Origin: a virus
Virus record (IMG/VR): IMGVR_UViG_3300013088_000124
Coordinates: 1 to 25,162 of that record
Direction: 5' to 3' (one strand)
Length of the DNA stretch: 25,162 bases
Positions within the stretch are counted from its first letter, which is position 1. Every line of letters starts with the position of its first letter. The translations under genes were made by a program, and so were the position numbers. The notes below the pieces were generated by a model. The model searched no databases and was not told where the DNA came from. It saw nothing but the letters and a program-made list of their open reading frames with translations. Of this stretch, positions 702 to 19,656 are shown piece after piece.

Positions 702-1895
702 TCAACCCGCCCGTTTTCCACTCGTCATCCAGAACGCGAGGACAAAGAGGACGGTCAGGGCGGCGATCAGCAAATAGAGCGTGAGGAGGTTCGAACCCGC
801 CAGGACGAAGGTCGCCATCAGGGGGCCGACGCCATTTCCGGCGAATCGCGCCGAATTCAGAAAGCCGATCCCCGTTCCCCCCAATTCCGAAGCGAAACTG
901 GCCATCACCAGCGGGATGACCACCGCAACGACCCCGGTCTGAAGCATCCTGATGACGGCAAAGCTGATGACTTCCCCCGGAAAGAACAGCAGGACCTGGA
1001 GGAATGCAGAGGTCAGGCATAATGCCGCGATGACCCTTTTGAGCCGTTTCCCCGCGGTCAGACGGCTGATCACGTAGTTTCCGATGATGGCGGTCGCCGT
1101 GTACCCCATCATGATAAACCCGGCGGATTTTATTGCGCTCTCACCCACCAGATCAAACCCCTCCAGCACATGGGGCAATATGCTCGGCAAAAAAGTCAGG
1201 TGGATGGTGGCGATGAAGCTTAACGCCCACCCCCACAGGACGCCTTGATCGAAATGGCTGCTCTGATCGGAGCCCGCCTCCCTCTTCCGGGTTTCAACGA
1301 TGTAGATATGGCACAGGACCAGGGCAACGCCGACCAAAAGGAAAGAGAGGACAAACGGGGCCCGGTATCCGATCTGGGCTGCGGCGTACGCCCCGACGGG
1401 CGGCCCCAAGAGCTGGCCGGCGGTCATGGAATTTTGATAGAGGCTCAGATTGCTTGGCAATCGCTCTTTCGACGATAGCTGCGAAATCATGAAAATACCG
1501 ATCGTCGAGGCGCCGCCGAGAGCTCCCTGGATCAGGCGCAGCGCCAGCAGCATGGGCAGGCTGTCCGTAAAACCCATGAGAAGAAAGATGATCCCGTTGC
1601 ATAAAAAAGCCCCCTGGTAGAGGGCCTTGGGGCGGAATGTTGCGGTCAGGCTTCCCCAGAAGGGCGCCGCCCCAGCGGCGATAAAGGAATTCAAACCCAT
1701 GATGAGCCCGATCCACACCATCGTTTCCGGAGGCTTGTAGGGGCTCATTCTAATGATATAGAAGGGCATGAACGACATGACGACGTTGAAGCTAAACGCC
1801 AGACCAAACTGCGACAGGGCGATGAAAATAATGCCCTTGTTTCCGTCCGAGGCAGGCAGGATACGGTTTAAAAAAGGAAATGCTATTTTTTTCAT
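702..1895 (-). CDS. MFS family transporter (probable drug/solute efflux)
   Basis: A 397-aa, very hydrophobic protein with about twelve predicted membrane segments, the usual size of a major facilitator superfamily permease in the inner membrane. The loop after the second segment (GSLTATFRPKALYQG, near residue 80) resembles the MFS motif A region. A second long hydrophilic loop near residues 205-220 (ETRKREAGSDQSS) separates the two six-helix halves. I chose the ATG at 1895 because AAGGTG precedes it at good spacing; a GTG three codons upstream (1904) is the alternative. The gene is divergent from a tetR-type gene across a 277-bp spacer, a common arrangement for a repressor-controlled efflux pump. 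Substrate is unknown. The family call is firm; the efflux role is inferred from context. Confidence 0.85.
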   Translation of the reverse strand: MKKIAFPFLNRILPASDGNKGIIFIALSQFGLAFSFNVVMSFMPFYIIRMSPYKPPETMVWIGLIMGLNSFIAAGAAPFWGSLTATFRPKALYQGAFLCNGIIFLLMGFTDSLPMLLALRLIQGALGGASTIGIFMISQLSSKERLPSNLSLYQNSMTAGQLLGPPVGAYAAAQIGYRAPFVLSFLLVGVALVLCHIYIVETRKREAGSDQSSHFDQGVLWGWALSFIATIHLTFLPSILPHVLEGFDLVGESAIKSAGFIMMGYTATAIIGNYVISRLTAGKRLKRVIAALCLTSAFLQVLLFFPGEVISFAVIRMLQTGVVAVVIPLVMASFASELGGTGIGFLNSARFAGNGVGPLMATFVLAGSNLLTLYLLIAALTVLFVLAFWMTSGKRAG

Positions 1896-2073
1896 ACGGT
1901 TCACACCTTACCGGCGGGGATTCCCGGGCGCCGGTCTCGGCGATGATTCACTCCTATCGTTCCATAAGGTACCCGGCGTTCTTATCACGGGTGCCGGAAG
2001 AGAAGCAATGATCTTCCCATCTGCCGCCAAAAGCCGGCGCCTATATCCGTCTCCTTCAGCCGACCGGGTGAAA

Positions 2074-4913: not shown

Positions 4914-6008
4914 TTATATTTCCTCCAAACTCAAATTTATCTCGGCCATTCCATCTCTCACCTGGCTAATTTCAAATTGTGTATAGATGCCAAGAATGGT
5001 AAGCATATCGAACCATTCACTTTCATTGTCGTCGAATCCGGTCCACAGCGCGGGCACTGCATTAAGCAGAACCCGCGCCTCTTTGCACCTGTTAACGCGA
5101 CCGCTTGATACACGCAACGTCTGCACAGTTTTTGGTATCGTCCTTCTCGGAATAAGAGTTGCGTTCCCAAAAGTATCCCGCGTGACACTGGAGAAGTTTA
5201 GGCCGTCGTTGGTTGCCCCATATTGAACATCGCCGATGTAGATGTAGGTGCCGCATACCAGCGCCCCGCACTTCACGTTGCCGCTGGTGGCTGTAATCGT
5301 CACGGTGATGATGATGTCGGAAAACGGCGGGATGTCGAAGATAGTCATGCTCGGCCGTGTTGAAAAAGGCTCAAAGCAGTAGTCGTAACCATCGTTGACA
5401 ATCCGAGTATTCAGATCGAATATGCCGGTGGGCGATTTACTATACGCGTTGGGGTATACCGTTCCGCCTCCCATCACAGATGTCGCGCTGATCTGCACCT
5501 GATTCGCGGACAACCCAGCAAGACCGACAGCATTGACACGCTGGCCGGGAGCAATCACAACGGTCAGGGGCGAGGCTGTAACCGTCTGTGTGTTCCGGCT
5601 GAGGTCGAACATCGCATAACGGTTTGTCGGCCCCACGTCCAGCCATTTCGTCGTTACCGTTTCCGGGAGCACCGGGAGAGGGTTTCCGACGTTCCCGGCG
5701 GCAAGGGATTCGTAACAGCGGTGGGATGTTGCCGATGACACGGTATCGCCCAGGGCATAGGTTGTCGCCGCATTATACGCCGTTTCGGTAGTGCCAAGAA
5801 CCCGCCACCAGATCGGGTTGATGTTCGGCGTGTTCCCGGTATTTGCGCCGGCCAGGGATTCGTATATGGCGAAATCCGCCGCCACGGAGACGATGGCGCC
5901 GAAGGCGTAAGTGGTCCCCGCCACGTAAGCCGCCGGGGCGTGGGGCTCGGCAGCGGTAGAGGATGTCAGTTTTGTGGTCGTTATTGCAACGGGGGGCGTT
6001 ACCCTCAT
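4914..6008 (-). CDS. Tail-tip/baseplate protein with two carbohydrate-binding-like modules
   Basis: The 364-aa protein has two tandem modules of about 45 residues, around 27-73 and 77-126. Each follows the pattern AY..GTTY..G..V....... YESLA..N.GN.P... ending in a Trp (WWRVLG, KWLDVG). This resembles the small aromatic-rich chitin/carbohydrate-binding modules (CBM5/12-like) used by phages to touch surface glycans. Next comes NRYAMFD and a beta-rich core with VTITATSGNVKCGALVCGTYIYIGDV. The acidic C-terminus (ESEWFDMLTILG...) may dock to the tail. It starts at ATG 6008, overlapping the tape measure stop (ATGA). Position directly after the tape measure, where distal tail or hub proteins normally lie, suggests a combined tip-adhesin role. 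Module assignment is by pattern only. Confidence 0.65.
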   Translation of the reverse strand: MRVTPPVAITTTKLTSSTAAEPHAPAAYVAGTTYAFGAIVSVAADFAIYESLAGANTGNTPNINPIWWRVLGTTETAYNAATTYALGDTVSSATSHRCYESLAAGNVGNPLPVLPETVTTKWLDVGPTNRYAMFDLSRNTQTVTASPLTVVIAPGQRVNAVGLAGLSANQVQISATSVMGGGTVYPNAYSKSPTGIFDLNTRIVNDGYDYCFEPFSTRPSMTIFDIPPFSDIIITVTITATSGNVKCGALVCGTYIYIGDVQYGATNDGLNFSSVTRDTFGNATLIPRRTIPKTVQTLRVSSGRVNRCKEARVLLNAVPALWTGFDDNESEWFDMLTILGIYTQFEISQVRDGMAEINLSLEEI

Positions 6009-9000
6009 GCCGGAGCCTCCGTCTTTATTGTCAGCCCGCCGCGGATGACAGAATTGAGCATGTAGGACAGGTCGCCGGTGTTTTTTTCAACCTTTGTGCC
6101 GCTTTTCTCAATTGCTACTGTCAAGGCCCTTAATTCAGAGATCAGCTCCGCGTTACTCGCCTGATCCTTCGAACCGTAAACCGTCGCCGGGTAGCTGGTG
6201 CGCGGGGAAACTATCAGTTCTGTCCCGTGGAGGGTGGCACCGTATCCGCTATATGGTCCGGTAGAGATCCCGCCATCTGCAAAGCCGCGCGACTCGTGGG
6301 CCGAAATGTCCCATGATGTCTTCGCGCCACCCAACATGGCCGATTCAAGCGCGGAGCCGGTTAATCCCGTGCCAAGATACCATGCCAATCCTTCAGAATC
6401 AGCAACCCGTCCGAAAAACCGCTGGTAATTGTCGATGATCTCGTTGGCGACTATATCCAACTTTTGTGCCCCATTGTGGATTGCTGTGGTCAGTGCTCCG
6501 CCCGTCAACCCGGTCTTCTGGTAATACTGCTTACCAATATCTTCGGCGGCTCTGCCAAACAGCGCTTGATAGTTCGCCTCTATCTCATTGGGCTGAATCG
6601 GCGGCGGCAAGGGGGGCGCAATGGTCCCGCCCGCCGCTACAACCGCCGCCTGGGCGAGCTGGAGCGCCGCTATCGCATCGGCAACGGAAAGCACGCTTGT
6701 ATCGATCCCCAGCAGGGCGTTCATCTGGGCATCGCGCCATGCGATATTTGCATCATAATTCTTCGTGAGGATGGAGATCTGCAGTTCCTGATCGGTCATG
6801 GACTTTTCAGCGGTGCCCAGTTGGGCGCCGGCATACTTTTCCAGCTCCGAGATCGCCGCATAGGTGGTCATGAAATCCCGCTTGTAGTCCGTCGAATTGG
6901 CGTACATCTCCGGGGTGATCCCGGTGAGGATGTCAACGGATTTTTGGACATCTTTGAGGCCGGAAAGGTCGCCCTTTCGCGCCTTCTCCAAGACGTTGGC
7001 AAGGTCCACCTGCGCCCGCATGAAGGTTGCGTGATCCGCAGCCGCGTCGACCAGTTTCATGCGCTCTTTGGCGGTTCGGAGTTTGTCGACCCCGGATTTC
7101 AAATCGGCGATGATCGCCTTTGTGGCGTCCAGGGTGGTATTCATCCCGGCCAATTCAAGGTTGTAAGTATCGGTCAACCGCTTCTTTTCAGCGTCAAAGG
7201 CTTTCTTCAGGTTGTCCTCGGCAACGGAAAGGAGCTTTTCCGCATTGTCGAGCTGGGCCTGATAGTATTGATCGGCCATTTCGGACATCTGCAGCAGGGC
7301 AACATAGGCTTTCTGCCCGGCGGTGGTGGTCAGATCCAGCCCTTCGACAAGCTGCCGGTAGCCCGCCCAATTGCCGGGGAGGGCCATGTTCATTGCCGCG
7401 AGGGAGTCGGTGAGCTGGCCCTGTAACCGGAGCTGCTTTTCCTCATCCGAGAAAAACTTGTCGTAATAGGTGGCGGCTGCTTCCTGGAGTTTATCCAGGC
7501 CACCGGCGATTTCTATCAATGCCTCTGAAAAGGCGATCATCTGCGGGATGGTGCCGCTGTAAGTCTGCCCGGTCATGTCAAGGACATCCGCAATCACGGC
7601 CTTGTCAATCAACAGGCGGCTTGCCGTTTCAAGCAGCCCTTCGTTTAATTTTTGATATTGTCCTATGACATCGCCAAGCAGGGCATTTGCCGCCGTATCG
7701 CTCATGGTGCTGATCGCTTCCGAAATAGCCTTGCTGATTTCTTCCGAGGTCTTGCCCATCAAATTGACGGCGAGGTTGCCGAACGAGTAGGCATAAATCT
7801 TGTCCATATCCGCGCCGAACGCTTGCCCGTAAGTGATGATGGCGGAAGAAAGGCTTGCATACACTTGCCGCATCATCCTTACGCTGGCATCGTCAAGGGC
7901 TGAGTTTTCGCCCGTAAGGGATGTGCTGTCAGAGCCAAAGAGACCTCCATCCCTATTTGTTACCCAGTTTCCCCATTTGTAAGGGCTTACCGATGCCCCC
8001 CGATTCCCGATGATTTCCTGGATCGACCCCGCATCGACCCCGATTCCAGAACCACTCTGTGACGTTGTAGTGCTGCCCCATAACCATTGATCGATTGCAG
8101 CGAAAATCTTGTCTGCATATAGGGAATACTTCGCCGCGATCGCGCTGAGCCGGGGGGATGTTTGGCCGAGGTCGATCATTGTTTCGCTCGCCGTGAACGT
8201 GCCGCCTCCCCGGATCAAACTCGTCACCAGCCCCGTGATGTTGGAATTCAAATCCTTCATCTCGTTGTAAATGCCGGTGAGCTTCGTATTTTCCATGTCG
8301 TAGGTGCCTTGCAAGAGTTCCCACGATTTCTGGATGGATTCGGAGCCTTGATCGTTTGCGCCGCCGAGGACTGTGGTGTTTTGGCCGTAAGCCGCCGCTT
8401 TAACCGGATAGCTCCCGCCGCTACCGCTGAACGATGCTCCTATCTGCGCTAAGTAGGATGCGACAACAGCCGCGACAGCCAACCCTCGCGCGATAGCCGT
8501 ATATCCATCTCCGTTTGCCATTGCATTAATGACGGCCTCAACCCCCTTGACTACGGCGTTAGCCGTATCGAAGCCCTTTTGAGCCAAAGCAAAGGCCATC
8601 GACATCTCGTGGTATTGTTTCTGCTTTGCCGACCCCTGATCATAAAGTTGGCTGACATATTCGAGGGCAGTTGACCACTCGCCCAGCGCATCCTTCATTG
8701 ATGATGCGTATTGAAAATTAGCCGCCCTTTTTTGTTCTGCTGCCCACTTCGCGGCTGCCACGTCGTCGCCATAAAAAGCCGCCAGGCGTTTTTCTTCTTT
8801 ATCAATCCAATCAAGTTTATTCTGTCGATACTTGTCTTCATAGCCTCCGATTGTTGAATAGTACTCGGCAAGTTCTTTTGACTGACCCCAATATTCGGCC
8901 ATGAGCGCATCAATCCCGATCTTGTTTTTCTGATCGGGGGCGACTTTCGTGCCGGTCATTTTCTCGTACAGGGCTATCGCGTCCCATACGTCCGCCTCTA

Positions 9001-10531
9001 TCTTCACCCGCCCAGCTCCGGCATGCCGCGCAAACTCAATAAGGTCCGCGGCCTGTTTTTTCTCCCATGTTACATAGGCCGAATATGCGCTCTTCATGAA
9101 TTCGAGGGTCTTTGCGTTGTTCAGTTGAATTTGCAGCCTATTTTCATATCGCTTCGCGGCTACATCGGCATCCATTGCGATCATTTTTTGTGCAACAAAG
9201 AGGGCGGCGCTGACTTTATCTCGGTCGGTCTTGGCTCGGGCCGCCTCCTCGAGGATGATCTCCTTCTTTGAGCGGTCGTAATATTCATCGATGAGCGTTG
9301 CCCTCTCGGCAAGGGTCTCGCGGCCTATCTGGAGTTCGTTCTCGCCGGCCAGTTTTCTGATCTCCTCGTTGTATTTGATCCGCGCTTCCTCTTCCGCAAA
9401 ATAGGCTTTATTCTCGGCCTTCATCGTTTCAAGGGCCATTTTTCGCTGTTGAACTGCGCCGATCATGGCGGCTAATTTGGCATCCGCGGCCGCCTTCGCC
9501 TTTTCAGCGCTTTGAATTGCCGCCAAGTCCCCCGCTTTGGCCGCCGCAGCCTGGCCGAGGATGTTGTCCATGCCCTTCGCGGCCAGTTCGCCGGATGCGC
9601 CGAGCATATCGTCAACCGCCTTGCCCATCACTTCGGCGTTTTCCCTGTACGCTTTGGCTCGGTCATCCTGCCCGGTCATTTCAAAAAACTTGGCGGAGGC
9701 CAAATCCATGTACTTCAAGAGCAATGGGAATCCCGACGCGGCGGTCAGCACGCCGGCGGCGAGCCATTGGAAAAAGCCGGTTGCAACCTGGAGGCTGCGA
9801 ATTAGGAAATTGCCGATTGTATCGGCTGTTTCTTTTGCTCCGGCTTTAAATATTTGGAGCTGCTCCTTGGCGTCGATCGCCACGGTCCCCACTTTGGCGG
9901 CCTGGAGGGCCGCATTGGCCATCGCGATCTCGTAGAGGCCGACGTCGTCGATTCCCTCAGCCAAGGCCTGGTTGACCAGTGTCATTTCCTGCTTCGTGAT
10001 CAGACCGTACTGCTTGAGCGCCCGGGGCATATTGGTTGATATGGCGTCCGTGATGGTCTCGTAGGTGGTTTTGACGTCCTGCCCGGTGACGCGAGCGGAG
10101 ATCCGCGCCGCCTCCATGATCTTGACCATCTCCTCGCCCTTCAGGCCAAGAATCAACCCTTTGGCGGCCTTTTGCATGAGATCGGTCTCTTCGATCGTGC
10201 CTGCGGATGCGCGCTTCATGGCGGCGAGGACACCGTCGGCGCTTTCATTCGCCGCCGCGGCGACGGAGCGAAACGAGGCTTCGCCCTGCTGGGATGCAGC
10301 GCCCTGCTCGATGTACGCCATCGCCTTTTTGAAGGCCACGCCGGCCGCATACGCCGCAGCGGTAAGTTCAACCCACGACGACTTGAGTTTACCGATAAGG
10401 CTGGCCGACGACGACGCGGAATCAGACACCTTCTGCAGGGCTTGTCCCGCGTTGGCTTCGAATTGCTTCATCGTCACCGACCCGTTGTCGTTGACTTTGA
10501 TCTCTATAGCGATAGTGCTTTGGTTTGCCAT
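6005..10531 (-). CDS. Tail tape measure protein
   Basis: At 1508 aa from ATG 10531 this is by far the longest gene and follows the frameshifted chaperone pair, the standard place for the tape measure. It shows an Ala-rich helical N-terminus (LTAAAYAAGVAFKKAMAYIEQG), a hydrophobic segment near residues 240-275 (FLIRSLQVATGFFQWLAAGV), long charged coiled-coil stretches, and two copies of a Y..LFGRAA(D/E) repeat near residues 1320-1390 that resemble DUF4214 motifs. A GFADGGISTGP...HGTE motif common near tape-measure C-termini follows. The protein sets tail length and is thought to pass through the membrane during DNA entry; at about 1.5 angstrom per residue the tail would be roughly 220-230 nm. 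A GTG at 10567 is an alternative start. It overlaps the chaperone frame by 28 bp. Confidence 0.92.
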   Translation of the reverse strand: MANQSTIAIEIKVNDNGSVTMKQFEANAGQALQKVSDSASSSASLIGKLKSSWVELTAAAYAAGVAFKKAMAYIEQGAASQQGEASFRSVAAAANESADGVLAAMKRASAGTIEETDLMQKAAKGLILGLKGEEMVKIMEAARISARVTGQDVKTTYETITDAISTNMPRALKQYGLITKQEMTLVNQALAEGIDDVGLYEIAMANAALQAAKVGTVAIDAKEQLQIFKAGAKETADTIGNFLIRSLQVATGFFQWLAAGVLTAASGFPLLLKYMDLASAKFFEMTGQDDRAKAYRENAEVMGKAVDDMLGASGELAAKGMDNILGQAAAAKAGDLAAIQSAEKAKAAADAKLAAMIGAVQQRKMALETMKAENKAYFAEEEARIKYNEEIRKLAGENELQIGRETLAERATLIDEYYDRSKKEIILEEAARAKTDRDKVSAALFVAQKMIAMDADVAAKRYENRLQIQLNNAKTLEFMKSAYSAYVTWEKKQAADLIEFARHAGAGRVKIEADVWDAIALYEKMTGTKVAPDQKNKIGIDALMAEYWGQSKELAEYYSTIGGYEDKYRQNKLDWIDKEEKRLAAFYGDDVAAAKWAAEQKRAANFQYASSMKDALGEWSTALEYVSQLYDQGSAKQKQYHEMSMAFALAQKGFDTANAVVKGVEAVINAMANGDGYTAIARGLAVAAVVASYLAQIGASFSGSGGSYPVKAAAYGQNTTVLGGANDQGSESIQKSWELLQGTYDMENTKLTGIYNEMKDLNSNITGLVTSLIRGGGTFTASETMIDLGQTSPRLSAIAAKYSLYADKIFAAIDQWLWGSTTTSQSGSGIGVDAGSIQEIIGNRGASVSPYKWGNWVTNRDGGLFGSDSTSLTGENSALDDASVRMMRQVYASLSSAIITYGQAFGADMDKIYAYSFGNLAVNLMGKTSEEISKAISEAISTMSDTAANALLGDVIGQYQKLNEGLLETASRLLIDKAVIADVLDMTGQTYSGTIPQMIAFSEALIEIAGGLDKLQEAAATYYDKFFSDEEKQLRLQGQLTDSLAAMNMALPGNWAGYRQLVEGLDLTTTAGQKAYVALLQMSEMADQYYQAQLDNAEKLLSVAEDNLKKAFDAEKKRLTDTYNLELAGMNTTLDATKAIIADLKSGVDKLRTAKERMKLVDAAADHATFMRAQVDLANVLEKARKGDLSGLKDVQKSVDILTGITPEMYANSTDYKRDFMTTYAAISELEKYAGAQLGTAEKSMTDQELQISILTKNYDANIAWRDAQMNALLGIDTSVLSVADAIAALQLAQAAVVAAGGTIAPPLPPPIQPNEIEANYQALFGRAAEDIGKQYYQKTGLTGGALTTAIHNGAQKLDIVANEIIDNYQRFFGRVADSEGLAWYLGTGLTGSALESAMLGGAKTSWDISAHESRGFADGGISTGPYSGYGATLHGTELIVSPRTSYPATVYGSKDQASNAELISELRALTVAIEKSGTKVEKNTGDLSYMLNSVIRGGLTIKTEAPA

Positions 10532-10812
10532 TCCATTGTTTCCTCGACCAGCCCCAGATCCATCCACTCCTCCAGGCTCAGGTCGTTTTTACCAAAGGGG
10601 TACCCGGCTTTTCGCAACTGCCGGAGTTTGAACATTTTATGCGTGTATTCGCTTAACTCGCTTTGCTTCTTTTTTTCGCATTCTCCGCACCGGTGGGTGA
10701 GCAGGGCGACTATCAGCTCACCGTCATCGGTTGAACATTCTTCCAAACATGTCGCCTCTTCGATGTCGTCGCAGAGCCCTCGGCGGATCGCCGCCAGGTC
10801 TACACTAAAGGG
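10504..10812 (-). CDS. Tail assembly chaperone, -1 frame extension (lambda gpT-like part)
   Basis: This reading frame has no good start of its own. It is open without a stop from the CCCTTTA heptamer at 10812-10806 to 10504, in the -1 frame relative to the upstream chaperone. A slip at the heptamer would give a 237-aa fusion: 137 residues of the first protein followed by 100 residues beginning SVDLAAIRRG. The extension has a Cys cluster (CLEEC ... HRCGEC) that could bind metal, then a basic, Leu-rich C-terminus (KLRQLRKAGYPFG) and ends overlapping the tape measure start. In lambda the G-T fusion binds the tape measure and recruits tail tube protein. A TTG start at 10746 is the alternative, giving 80 aa. 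The assignment rests on position, frame and slippery site, not on sequence similarity. Confidence 0.75.
   Translation of the reverse strand, partial: PFSVDLAAIRRGLCDDIEEATCLEECSTDDGELIVALLTHRCGECEKKKQSELSEYTHKMFKLRQLRKAGYPFGKNDLSLEEWMDLGLVEETMEWQTKALSL
10782..10812 (-). promoter_or_regulatory. Programmed -1 ribosomal frameshift site (CCCTTTA heptamer plus hairpin)
   Basis: On the sense strand the zero frame reads GAC CCT TTA GTG TAG. C-CCT-TTA is a perfect X-XXY-YYZ heptamer (10812-10806), two codons before the stop (10802-10800). Nine to ten bases after it, GGCGG-CGAT-CCGCC (10795-10782) forms a GC-only 5-bp stem, extendable by a U-G pair. Both elements match the known architecture of tail-chaperone frameshift signals. 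Confidence 0.8.
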
Positions 10813-11216
10813 TCTTCGGGCTTCCCGGCTTCCTCCTCGTCCGGCGTGTCGCTGATCAGCGAGGATTCAAAGACGTGCATGGCCAGCATTTCGATCACGT
10901 CCTGCGCGTACTGCCGGACGATCGTCTTCCATGCCGGGTCGTAATTGGGAGACTTCGGATCCGACGCGAGGGGCTTTCCTTCTTCCTTCTCGAAACAGCC
11001 TTCCTTGAAGCCGAGCAGGATCGCCGAGCCGTACTTCAGCCGCGCCGTACCCACGTTGCTTTCGATTTTGTTCCCGCGCCTGGTGGCCAGGGAATTGGTG
11101 TAGGCGACGCGTTCCTCGGTTGTCGGCAGGCGGTAAAAGAGGGTGATTTTCGACTCGCTGATGCGGTCAAAAAAGGTCACTACACAGGGCTGCTTATCAT
11201 TCAATAATCGGGGCAT
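10800..11216 (-). CDS. Tail assembly chaperone (lambda gpG-like, zero-frame product)
   Basis: A 138-aa acidic protein between the tail tube and tape measure genes, the slot of lambda gpG, whose length (140 aa) is nearly the same. It starts MPRLLNDKQPCVVTFFDRIS, with AAAGGA ahead of ATG 11216. The N-terminal half is beta/alpha mixed (ITLFYRLPTTEERVAYTNSL) and the C-terminal half helical (TIVRQYAQDVIEMLAMHVF), closing with an acidic tail (DTPDEEEAGKPED). The gene ends two codons after a CCCTTTA slippery site that links it to the downstream frame. Family members keep the tape measure soluble and guide tube polymerisation. Sequence divergence among these chaperones is extreme, so the call depends on synteny and the frameshift signal. 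Confidence 0.75.
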   Translation of the reverse strand: MPRLLNDKQPCVVTFFDRISESKITLFYRLPTTEERVAYTNSLATRRGNKIESNVGTARLKYGSAILLGFKEGCFEKEEGKPLASDPKSPNYDPAWKTIVRQYAQDVIEMLAMHVFESSLISDTPDEEEAGKPEDPLV

Positions 11217-11419
11217 TGGATCTGTCCTTTCTCCCGTGGGGCGGGATGTTTTGCCCCCTCCCCTTTGTCCCCTCCCGCGAGGGGAGGGGAGATCTCGTAT
11301 CCGCTTTCGCGGGGAGATCTTGAGAGGGCGCGTGGTTTATGGCGGGGGGCGGTGGGGTTCTTCCCCCATAGGCCGGGAGATATCCCGGCTTACCGCGGCC
11401 GCCCCCGTAACTTCCGTCT
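11217..11419 (-). other. Hairpin-rich non-coding spacer between tail tube and chaperone genes
   Basis: No convincing gene. Several inverted repeats follow one another: CCCCTC-CCGC-GAGGGG (about 11269-11284), AGATCTC ... GAGATCT (11290-11320), GGGG-TTCTT-CCCC (11354-11366) and GCCGGGA-GATA-TCCCGGC (11372-11389). With the 47-nt double hairpin at 11420-11466 they fill the whole 262-nt gap. They could act as attenuators, partial terminators or RNA-processing sites after the highly expressed tube gene. Confidence 0.55.
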
Positions 11420-11466
11420 GGAAACACGATGCGATCCCGCCGGGCGGGCTTCCGCATCATGTCCCC
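11420..11466 (-). repeat. 47-nt double-hairpin repeat, copy A
   Basis: Plus-strand arms GGAAACACGATGCG (11420-11433) and CGCATCATGTCCCC (11453-11466) enclose an inner stem CCCGC/GCGGG. It lies 12 nt after the stop of the tail tube gene. In the minus-strand RNA all 14 outer pairs form (with G-U wobbles); in plus-strand RNA three would be mismatched. It matches copy B at 43 of 47 positions. Confidence 0.85.
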
Positions 11467-11478
11467 GTGGCGTTATGT

Positions 11479-13005
11479 TTAAGCCGCGTACGTCGCCTGT
11501 AAATTCTTCACCTTGACGATCACCGAGCCGTAGGTGTCATCCTCGAGGACCTGAAGATCACCGGCCTCGCCGAGCCGCTTCCCGTCCACCGAGATCGGCG
11601 CCGCAAGGACTGCCACTTTCGGGAAGATGATCTCCACCTGGTACTTGTGGGGCGTGTCGTAGATTGCCCCTTCGGCCAGGATGTAGAATCCCATAGTGTC
11701 GTTGTCGATCAGCTTCTGCTGCATGATAAACTCACGGAACTCGCGGTTCAGCGTGATCTTCTGCGTCCTTCCGCCGCGCATGCCCCTGGAGGCATAAGTG
11801 CCGCCCCCCCCGGGGACAAACTCCACAGCCATGTTTTTATTCCCCGACCAATCGACGGATTTTACCTCGGCCTGTAATTCACGGCCGCCCAGAAAGGTCG
11901 TCCCGTTCCACTTTCCGCCGGCCTTTAGCGTCATCTGCGACACCCGCAGCGGGGTCTCATTGATCCGCGCGGGGAACGTCATCCATCCCGATTCCGTCGG
12001 GATGTAGAGGATATCATAGGTGGCGTTTGTGGATTCGATGACGGTTCCGGGATCGGTCCCGGCGTCATACGCCACCGCGAACCCCGAGGAGTTGATCGCG
12101 ACGGAGAATGAATCGACTCCGATATACGTGACGGTCTGCTCGCCGTTGAGGCCGGACCAGTCCGCCTGCGTGATCCCCGCAAAAGTCACTTTGTCGGTGC
12201 TGACCAGACCGTGGGCAACCCACGTAACGACGCAAGCCGCCGCCTTCGAGAGCCCGGCGATAGCCACCGCTGTCGCCGGCGGCGTGATGGTGATGACAGC
12301 CGGAGTCGCAGCGGAGACCTCCGAGAATGCGACATTCTGATATTCGCCGCTGTTTGGCATCAACACGCGGATCTGCTGGACGTTTTCCAGCCTTGTCGCG
12401 GCGCTCGCGGGAGTGTCGTCCTGGACGGCCAGGGCGGCCAGCGTCAGCGACGTGGCGTTCATTTTGGCCGTCTTGTTCTCTTTTGCGATATTGTCCGTAT
12501 ACTTTCCGGCGCCCTTGATCGTCCCCGAGATCTTGCACCAGGCGTCCTTTGCAAACGATGCCGAGATGGAATCGACGAACATCGAAGCAAACCGCCGCCG
12601 GAGAACATTGTCGCCATAGCGCTGCGCCGCCGTAAACGAGGGCTCCGAGCGATCATCATCAAGGTCTCCGTCAATCGGGGTGATGGTATGCTGATAACCC
12701 GTTCCGGCAGGCACCGTGGCGCACTCACCCAGAAAATACGCCAGCAGGAAGGCAAAGTGCTGCGGCTGCGCCTTCTCAAAATTGAATGTGGCGTTGGACA
12801 GCGAACCCAGGTCGTAGAGGGTGTCGGGCTCCTCTTTTCCGGTCGCCTCATTTTCGTTTGACTCGCGCCGGTGCTCCAGGTTGATGATGTCGCCCAGGGC
12901 GCAGAGCATCGTCGTATCCAGCGTCTGTTCCGTATTGATGGCCGTCTCCCTTGTGTTGGCCGAGACGGCGATCAGATCGTGCGTCGCCATGTGTGATCGC
13001 GTCAT
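11479..13005 (-). CDS. Major tail tube protein with inserted surface domain
   Basis: A 508-aa protein. The N-terminus has NTEQTLDTTMLC and long beta-strand stretches, with FAFLLAYFLG and GTGYQHTITPIDGD typical of siphovirus/Mu-type tube proteins. Residues about 100-200 (SISASFAKDAWCKISGTIKGAGKY) and 340-500 (RVSQMTLKAGGKW, GGGGTYASRGMRG, YQVEIIFPKVAVL) continue the tube fold. Between them, residues about 256-325 (CVVTWVAHGLVSTDKVTFAGI ... DSFSVAINSSGF) form a separate small beta module. This module also recurs in other phage virion proteins and probably projects from the tube. ATG 13005 follows GGAGG; the gene starts 4 bp after the small gene upstream. The gap after its stop is a hairpin-rich spacer. 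The call is by composition, module layout and synteny with the tape measure. Confidence 0.75.
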   Translation of the reverse strand: MTRSHMATHDLIAVSANTRETAINTEQTLDTTMLCALGDIINLEHRRESNENEATGKEEPDTLYDLGSLSNATFNFEKAQPQHFAFLLAYFLGECATVPAGTGYQHTITPIDGDLDDDRSEPSFTAAQRYGDNVLRRRFASMFVDSISASFAKDAWCKISGTIKGAGKYTDNIAKENKTAKMNATSLTLAALAVQDDTPASAATRLENVQQIRVLMPNSGEYQNVAFSEVSAATPAVITITPPATAVAIAGLSKAAACVVTWVAHGLVSTDKVTFAGITQADWSGLNGEQTVTYIGVDSFSVAINSSGFAVAYDAGTDPGTVIESTNATYDILYIPTESGWMTFPARINETPLRVSQMTLKAGGKWNGTTFLGGRELQAEVKSVDWSGNKNMAVEFVPGGGGTYASRGMRGGRTQKITLNREFREFIMQQKLIDNDTMGFYILAEGAIYDTPHKYQVEIIFPKVAVLAAPISVDGKRLGEAGDLQVLEDDTYGSVIVKVKNLQATYAA

Positions 13006-17214: not shown

Positions 17215-19656
17215 TTATCCGCCCGCGACGACCGACTTGTCGAAGCCGCGGTAGTCCGCAATTTCCCACTCATACTCATGCCGCTGTTTGTACTGGATTT
17301 TGTCCGCTACAAACATCTGACCGACGAGCGGGTTGTCGGCCACAAACAGCTCCGGGACTTCCTGGCCGTTCAGGAACGCGACCTCCAGGAGCTCCACCTC
17401 GGCCGGGTTGCCGATCAGGCCCCAGTCGGTGGTATCCGTGGCGCTCTTATTCACCAGGATGTTCTCGTGGTTGGCGCCGAAAAGCCCTGCATGGGAGTTC
17501 GGCGCAGCCGCGCCGGGCCAACTGGAATTGAGCAGCCTTGCCGTTTCCAGGAGGGCGCGGGGCACCCAGATCTTGGCCGGCTCCAGGCAGAGACATTTGC
17601 CGCTGTCCTTTTCGGTCTGGTTGAACATGGCCACCAGGCGGTTGGTCAGCGTCGTCACCCCGGTTGCATCGGCGGTGAGGGCCACCGAGCCGAGGTTCCC
17701 ATGCGAGGCGTCGAACAGCGCCGTGGAGTCGCCCTTATACGTGGCGTTGCTGTTGATTTTCGCCCAGCCGCGTTCCGCAAAGGTGCGCTTGGCCGCCCGG
17801 CCCAGCCGTGAGACCAGAACCTGGACGCTCTTGAGGTCGTCGTTTATGATCACCTTCCGGTTGACCGTCAGGATGATGCCCTTCTGGTTCAGCGCGTAGG
17901 AGATCTCCTCGTCGTTCGCCATCGTGATCTCCGCGTAGTCTCCGGACTCGGGATCTACATCCGGGAGATCGCCGAAATAGCCGACGTTGATGGATTCCAT
18001 CGTTTTAAAATCCTTGGCGTTCCGCTTGTAGCTGATCAGGGCCTGCTCGCCATAATCGACGGCGCGGTAGTCCTGAATCAATCTCCGGTACATGGAGTTT
18101 CCGAGGACATAGGTGAAGGATGCGGTGCTGTACGCGGCCGGCATCCTCATCATCTGCATCATCGCCTCGCCTATTTTCAGCCCGTTCTGGGTGGGCACGC
18201 CGCGCACATCGGTGTCGCCGGTGAGGTGCACGTAGGCGGCGCGAAGCGAGGTAAGCGCCGCGACGTCCTTGAACTTCTCGTCCACCGTGACGCCCATGAG
18301 CTTGTCAAAGGCCGCCTGGAGCTTTTCGGGCTCCTCCGCCCCGACGCGTACGCCGCCGGCGCCGGAAACGATTCCCGCCCCGGTGAGCTTGTCGAGATAT
18401 TCCTTCTCGTCGTTCACTGCAGCCTGGAGCGCCGTGACGTCAAAGACCTTGCCGTCAAACTGCTTTTTGACCCGAGCCTGAGAGAGATCCGGCAGGCCGC
18501 TTTCGCGCAACTCGTCTTTCAGGGTGAGCCCGCATGCGGTAATCCTGGACTGCTCCAGGAGCTGACGCATCTCCGCCCCGCCCGCATCGCCTGCGGCCTT
18601 CACCGCCGCCTGGATGCGCTGGTCGAGGTCCTTCGTGTCCTTCGTGTCGCCGGTTGCCGACGCCAGCAGGGCGATCACCTCGTCTTCGGTGATCGTCTTG
18701 TCCGTGATTTTTGCCTCGATCGACTTGTAGAGATCGGCGCTTTTCGTCTTCAAGGCTGCCAAAAGTTTCTCCAACATACCTTCCTCCTTCCGGCCCGCCT
18801 GATAGGCAGCGGCCATTCTCAAAATCTTCCCCCCCGCAATGGGGTCATAGACAACGTCCACGCTGTCCACCCTGACGATCTTTTCCACTCTCTTCGGATT
18901 CGTGCCCGGCATTGTGGCCGCCAGCACGTCGTGGGAGAGCCCCACGATATCTTTCTTCCCGCGAGCCCAGGCGTCGCCGATCATGTCCTTCAGCCAGGCG
19001 GCGCTTTTGAGGATATTGAGCGTGCCCTCCAGCCCCGTGGCATTGGCCGCGACGTCGGACATCCAGCCCACCAGATCCCGGACGGATTTTCCGTAAGGAT
19101 TCGCCGGGTTGTCATGCTGCGCCTGGGACAGCGCAAACACCCGGGAGCCCTCGTAAAGAGGCGCCGCCGCCGTGAGCACGGCGAGCGGATAGTCGGCGAT
19201 TTTCTGTTTGTCGATCCCGGCTTCGTTGATCTGCACCCGCCAGCGGGAGCCGTAATCGGCGTCGGTCGTTTCGCCCACCGCTGCCGATAATTGAGCCGCC
19301 GCCTGGACCTTGATGTAATCGACCTGCTTGCGCACCTCCACCGACGTTCCCAGCACGATCTTGCTATCGACGATTGCGTAAGGGACCTCATATGTTTTGT
19401 CGTCGTCTCCGGACGCGATGCAGCGATCGTCGTAAACGTCCACAATCCACCCGCCGCCCTTCTGCGGATAGGCTGCCGTGAGCGCCGGGCAGAGCATCTT
19501 CTTGATCTCCGCATGGCTGAATCCCGCCGCGGTGAGCCGATCGGCGTCATCCGTTCCCGCGGCCAGCAGCCGTGTTAAATCCTTCCAGGTAGGGAACCGG
19601 GTGCAGTTTACACCCTCCCCCACCACGAGCACCCGTGTCAGCGTTTTCCTGGACAT
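17215..19656 (-). CDS. Prohead protease - scaffold - major capsid fusion protein
   Basis: An 813-aa polyprotein. Residues about 90-285 resemble phage prohead serine proteases: SQAQHDNPANPYGKSVRDLVGW (His181 a likely catalytic residue), then KKDIVGLSHDV (Ser241 the likely nucleophile). Residues about 290-440 are helical and charged, like a scaffold (LEKLLAALKTKSADLYKSIE ... DLDQRIQAAVKAAGD). Residues about 450-813 resemble Mu gpT-type major capsid proteins (NQKGIILTVNRKVIINDDL, ALFDASHGNLG, and near the end YEWEIADYRGFDKS). Protease-capsid fusions are known in some Mu-like prophages. ATG 19656 follows GGAGGAG and abuts the stop of the upstream gene. A strong internal Shine-Dalgarno and ATG at codon 294 could yield a separate 520-aa scaffold-capsid product. 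Domain order is clear; catalytic residues are inferred. Confidence 0.85.
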   Translation of the reverse strand: MSRKTLTRVLVVGEGVNCTRFPTWKDLTRLLAAGTDDADRLTAAGFSHAEIKKMLCPALTAAYPQKGGGWIVDVYDDRCIASGDDDKTYEVPYAIVDSKIVLGTSVEVRKQVDYIKVQAAAQLSAAVGETTDADYGSRWRVQINEAGIDKQKIADYPLAVLTAAAPLYEGSRVFALSQAQHDNPANPYGKSVRDLVGWMSDVAANATGLEGTLNILKSAAWLKDMIGDAWARGKKDIVGLSHDVLAATMPGTNPKRVEKIVRVDSVDVVYDPIAGGKILRMAAAYQAGRKEEGMLEKLLAALKTKSADLYKSIEAKITDKTITEDEVIALLASATGDTKDTKDLDQRIQAAVKAAGDAGGAEMRQLLEQSRITACGLTLKDELRESGLPDLSQARVKKQFDGKVFDVTALQAAVNDEKEYLDKLTGAGIVSGAGGVRVGAEEPEKLQAAFDKLMGVTVDEKFKDVAALTSLRAAYVHLTGDTDVRGVPTQNGLKIGEAMMQMMRMPAAYSTASFTYVLGNSMYRRLIQDYRAVDYGEQALISYKRNAKDFKTMESINVGYFGDLPDVDPESGDYAEITMANDEEISYALNQKGIILTVNRKVIINDDLKSVQVLVSRLGRAAKRTFAERGWAKINSNATYKGDSTALFDASHGNLGSVALTADATGVTTLTNRLVAMFNQTEKDSGKCLCLEPAKIWVPRALLETARLLNSSWPGAAAPNSHAGLFGANHENILVNKSATDTTDWGLIGNPAEVELLEVAFLNGQEVPELFVADNPLVGQMFVADKIQYKQRHEYEWEIADYRGFDKSVVAGG
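18775..18788 (-). promoter_or_regulatory. Internal ribosome binding site and ATG inside the protease-capsid fusion
   Basis: The sense strand reads GGAAGGAGGAAGGTATG, with a full AGGAGG (18788-18783) five bases before an in-frame ATG (codon 294). It sits exactly between the protease and scaffold regions. It is as strong as the true gene starts of this operon and would make a 520-aa scaffold-capsid protein without the protease. Confidence 0.65.

Follow-up and report, generated by a model that had tools for sequence, protein, structure and literature searches.

The closest described system is the pair of tail assembly chaperone genes G and T of phage lambda, whose G/GT mechanism has been reviewed and whose type of frameshift persists across phages even though the frames themselves share little sequence similarity (PMC5009743). 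Lambda G is 140 aa and T 144 aa; the gene order is upstream gene, G, T and tape measure gene (H), with a -1 overlap near the end of G, no conserved start for T and a slip motif, GGGAAAG, at the junction. The window analysed here, a stretch of 25,162 nt (IMG/VR virus record IMGVR_UViG_3300013088_000124, positions 1 to 25,162), belongs to a Mu-related phage of anaerobic bacteria, and its head genes include Mu F-like and protease/capsid proteins. Its minus strand shares with lambda the gene order, the -1 overlap, the T frame without a conserved start and the slip motif at the junction. We conclude that the G/T pair of the window very probably undergoes a programmed -1 ribosomal frameshift in tail assembly chaperone genes, as lambda G/GT does, a true and ordinary instance of the known tail-chaperone kind. 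The features of the locus are the following:

11479..13005, minus strand: probable major tail protein, a role suggested by position
10800..11216, minus strand: upstream ORF, G-type tail assembly chaperone (zero-frame product), 138 aa, with ATG at 11216
10806..10812, minus strand: slippery heptamer C CCT TTA, read from the sequence
10809..10812, minus strand: conserved slip core C_CCT, in 25/25 members of the window's clade
10800..10802, minus strand: zero-frame stop TAG, shortly 3' of the slip site, read from the sequence
10504..10806, minus strand: T-type -1 frame extension, 100 codons, with a four-cysteine domain (sequence and AlphaFold2 model, pLDDT 93.9)
10782..10795, minus strand: downstream hairpin GGCGG-CGAT-CCGCC from the sequence, arms GGCGG 10795-10791 and CCGCC 10786-10782
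10768..10805, minus strand: wider predicted stimulatory RNA structure, fold -18.2 kcal/mol
10744..10746, minus strand: TTG, candidate alternative start for the second frame under a rival explanation; GAGG 8 nt upstream, non-conserved
6005..10531, minus strand: tape measure protein (phrog_7740, E 1.9e-28)

The zero-frame codons at the junction are CCT (10811-10809), TTA, GTG and TAG (10802-10800), and the minus-strand sequence bears out the initial annotation, which had placed C CCT TTA in the zero frame two codons before the stop of the 138-aa frame. It had also described a -1 frame open for 100 codons to the tape measure start, and this too is as stated: from A10806 the frame reads SVDLAAIRRGLC... 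for 100 codons to a TAG at 10506-10504. A one-base shift back after TTA yields SVDLAAIRRGLCDD..., with the stop inside the start of the tape measure gene (ATG 10531, or GTG 10567), which the -1 frame overlaps. The hairpin with a GC-only stem, which it had set 9-10 nt downstream, begins 10 nt 3' of the heptamer, all coordinates in the annotation are right, and the likeness in size between the upstream product and lambda G (138 and 140 aa) holds. The locus differs from lambda in the length of T (100 rather than 144 aa), in the four-cysteine pattern conserved here, in its slip motif, C CCT TTA, and in having no detectable sequence similarity in G or T; lambda-like homology by sequence was sought by profile comparison with lambda G and T, which gave no signal.

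That ribosomes shift frame here, how efficiently they do so, how exactly the tRNAs re-pair and what the products bind are inferred from these features. For most ribosomes, translation would end at TAG 10800 and yield the 138-aa G-type protein. A minority would be slowed by RNA structure starting about 10 nt 3' of the slip site and would re-pair tRNA-Pro on C_CCT one base back, in the window together with the next tRNA on TTA. Continuing through 100 codons of the -1 frame, these shifted ribosomes would produce a fusion of G and T, about 237 aa long. If lambda is a guide, its G portion may bind the tape measure protein and its T portion may recruit the major tail protein.

The search for relatives started from the -1 frame product by itself, continued with its alignment, and yielded 114 viral hits, of which 80 were kept, together with 10 contigs from bacterial genomes. 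The bacterial contigs were mostly from Desulfobacterota (Desulfobacteraceae, Desulfobulbaceae, Smithella and unnamed Deltaproteobacteria), with two from Nitrospinaceae. After removal of redundancy, 76 loci remained, comprising 75 non-redundant relatives and the window's own; one of the loci, L014, is from a record that matches the window record 100% over the -1 frame protein. In 76/76 loci a G frame lies upstream and ends in a -1 relation to the T frame, and the G frames are homologous where aligned. Because the G frame was absent from the query, its presence upstream of T is independent evidence. A gene homologous to the 11479-13005 product stands upstream of G in 68/76 loci and a tape measure homologue downstream in 21/76 (own record included in both counts), many flanks being short. 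Two overlapping frames, the second in -1, directly upstream of a tape measure gene are the arrangement of the lambda G/GT type. The source of the window, IMG/VR, is a public collection of virus records derived from metagenomes, as would suit an origin of the split in gene decay or in a frameshift introduced by sequencing or assembly; with the -1 split at the same protein position in 76/76 non-redundant loci, on many contigs and genomes, the probability of such an artefact is practically negligible.

The beginning of the -1 frame evolves as coding sequence. Between its conserved DL and the position of the window's TTG (17 loci), pN/pS was 0.36 in the -1 frame, as against 1.16 and 1.33 in the other frames, and by this comparison selection acts at the protein level on the first 18 conserved codons of the -1 frame. 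Among 37 aligned T domains, C12, C40 and C43 never vary and C20 hardly does, and a conserved GYPFxxNDLTxEEWxDLG comes after them; a zinc site in this domain would be a guess from the residues.

These codons bear on whether the second frame could be a separate gene, translated from an internal start at TTG 10746 or by re-initiation after TAG. The initial annotation had stated that this frame lacks a normal start codon. No start is conserved; the frame does have a non-ATG candidate, TTG 10746, which alone near its beginning is plausible as an internal start and has a Shine-Dalgarno-like GAGG 8 nt upstream in the window. The codon aligned with this TTG is ATG or TTG in only 3/56 loci (own record included), and in most loci the first in-frame ATG, GTG or TTG comes at least 20 codons after the slip site, within or past conserved residues. 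Translation from the TTG would also leave out the selected codons between it and the slip site, which include C12 and C20, and leaves the slip motifs unexplained. We therefore regard a separate second gene as very unlikely; a T frame without its own conserved start, as found here, is a property of the lambda G/GT type.

A slip motif of the kind expected for a lambda G/GT-type pair is present at the junction in 75/76 loci. The commonest is A AAA AAC (24 loci), followed by C CCT TTG and G GGA AAC (8 each), G GGA AAG (7), A AAC CCT (5), C CCT TTA (4) and C CCA AAC (2); C_CCT stands alone in 12 and A_AAG alone in 2, three are single cases and one (L063) has none. G GGA AAG, in seven relatives, is the lambda motif. 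Zero-frame X XXY YYZ heptamers occur at a background of 0.39% per codon in the gene bodies, far below their frequency at the second (45/76) and third (16/76) codons before the stop. The zero frame stays open longer in two loci, L049 and L089, where the heptamer, 9 and 16 codons before the stop, respectively, is still at the start of the conserved T domain. Since these heptamers adjoin the T domain far from the stop, the position of the motif tracks the fusion point, not the stop codon. On a quick tree, in which several branches are weakly supported, the class of slip motif changes at least 11 times, and across the wider family the frame relation is unchanged throughout. L063 is the sole relative with no recognized slip motif at its junction (GAC CAG GAC TGA); a strong 13-bp hairpin is predicted after it (L063:1975-2035).

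The same motifs speak to transcriptional slippage, by which the polymerase rather than the ribosome would shift the frame. One group of relatives does have A-rich junctions (GAA AAA AAC) of the sort that this would call for. However, the runs in the window are only three C and three T, and other relatives use C_CCT or GGGAAA motifs without a long homopolymer; transcriptional slippage is thus extremely improbable here, and ribosomal frameshifting is the reading that we retain. In about a third of loci, GAGGA lies 6-7 nt upstream of the slip motif, a position from which it could weakly stimulate the shift as an internal Shine-Dalgarno element; the window lacks it. The choice of GAG over GAA at this Shine-Dalgarno-like site (25/36 against a background of 54%) is unconvincing.

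The window falls in a clade of 25 rows (tree support 99), in which the conserved element is the tetramer C_CCT and not the heptamer. All 25 members have C_CCT, whereas CCT accounts for only 10% of the Pro codons of these genes, and the codon before CCT ends in C in 25/25 against a background of 32%; the members are related and hence not independent observations, and these counts are to be read accordingly. The codon after CCT varies (TTG 7, ACC 6, TTA 4, TCC 3, ACT 2, ACG 2 and ATT 1), and the heptamer C CCT TTR is found in 11/25 members. In ten, CCT is preceded by AAC, and the AAAC context provides a second possible heptamer, A AAC CCT. The initial annotation had proposed looking in relatives for the heptamer together with the fused frame, and had named as a refutation the case in which both frames are kept and the heptamer is lost. 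The frame relation (76/76) and a slip motif (75/76) were indeed found across the family, and the particular heptamer proved to be present in only 11 of the 25 clade members. The other 14 keep the frames without C CCT TTR, yet all 25 keep C_CCT, which counts against the heptamer and not against the frameshift.

In E. coli, a strong stimulator puts C_CC.U among six tetramers at least four-fold above background, and C_CC.U_UU.A exceeds 0.10% with no stimulator present (Sharma et al. 2014, PMC4066793). The Z_ZZN and X_XXZ_ZZN motifs of that study were tested with reporters in E. coli, whereas the phages that carry the motifs here have named hosts mostly among the Desulfobacterota. One joint reading, which in our judgement could equally well hold or fail, is that in the clade a lone C_CCT with a downstream hairpin would be the working slip site, depending on re-pairing of a single tRNA-Pro, with C CCT TTA only an optional strengthener; and that across the family the slip motif would have passed from one class to another at least 11 times (A AAA AAC, G GGA AAS, C CCA AAC, A_AAG and C_CCT), always with the same frame relation and joined to a previously undescribed four-cysteine T domain.

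RNA structure 3' of the slip site was in excess across the family. Against dinucleotide shuffles, mean folding z was -1.49 (s.e. 0.22, 76 loci) at 0 to +44 nt after the slip site, and near zero (+0.1 to -0.5) elsewhere in the region. Against synonymous recodings of the -1 frame, the family mean was -1.78 (s.e. 0.18) at codons 2-14 after the slip site, with -0.05 to -0.51 in five later segments. For the window alone, synonymous recoding gave z -2.11 at codons 2-14 (39 nt) and -0.12 at codons 4-14; against dinucleotide shuffling, its own hairpin had z -1.14, ordinary for its composition, and the minimum-energy and centroid folds of the 10782..10795 hairpin differ in register. The position of the stem varies between subgroups. 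We sought a single conserved hairpin by covariation in two registers, neither of which was clearly above slid controls, and we therefore limit the claim to excess structure. In A4 one of 40 rows, that of the window, is three bases out of register, with 27 nt taken from 10797 instead of 10800.

The G and T products had no match in Pfam, PHROGs or NCBIfam, nor in PDB sequences or phage records. The G-type ORF gave an AlphaFold2 model of pLDDT 91.2, and the frame is at the same place in the 75 non-redundant relatives. Its fold matches were 3fgx (Z 6.9), YqbN 3klu (Z 4.5) and the HK97 tail assembly chaperone 2ob9 (Z 4.2), all weak (Z under 8); the predicted G aligns with the last two, but at 10-13% identity and with no sequence family match. 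The BFVD matches of the model include several proteins annotated as tail assembly chaperones, at E 0.016 to 0.5 and none below E 0.001. The predicted G fold thus weakly resembles known tail assembly chaperones. The T model (AlphaFold2, pLDDT 93.9) had no fold match in the PDB or BFVD. Taken with the frame relation, the slip motif, selection in the -1 frame, RNA structure and gene order, the weak G fold match supports the tail-chaperone frameshift that the initial annotation had read from the sequence.

What is new here is the family itself: tail chaperone pairs in large number, with no match in Pfam, PHROGs or NCBIfam and met in this analysis chiefly on virus contigs from the environment and in uncultured Desulfobacterota, are added to a textbook case of recoding. 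Within the family the gene pair retains its frameshift as one slip motif replaces another, the weak tetramer C_CCT included, and in this natural series motifs can be compared for a usable ratio of G to GT. Annotation tools that rely on heptamers only will miss some of these fusions.

Other parts of the window were also unusual. In the roughly 260 nt between the upstream gene and G (11217-11478), inspection by eye showed inverted repeats rich in G and C, such as CTCCCCTCCCCTCGCGGGAGGGG, which are unusual inside a tail operon. The upstream gene itself (11479..13005) encodes a product with no Pfam, PHROG or NCBIfam match. An 813-aa ORF at 17215-19656 (minus strand) joins a protease-like N-terminal part (phrog_15531) to a capsid C-terminal part (Phage_capsid_4) and is apparently a protease-capsid fusion. 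Beyond the tail fibre genes, at 702-1904 (minus strand), lies an MFS transporter (MFS_1, E 1.9e-32), so the record may run into host DNA at this end, and the phage may be integrated.
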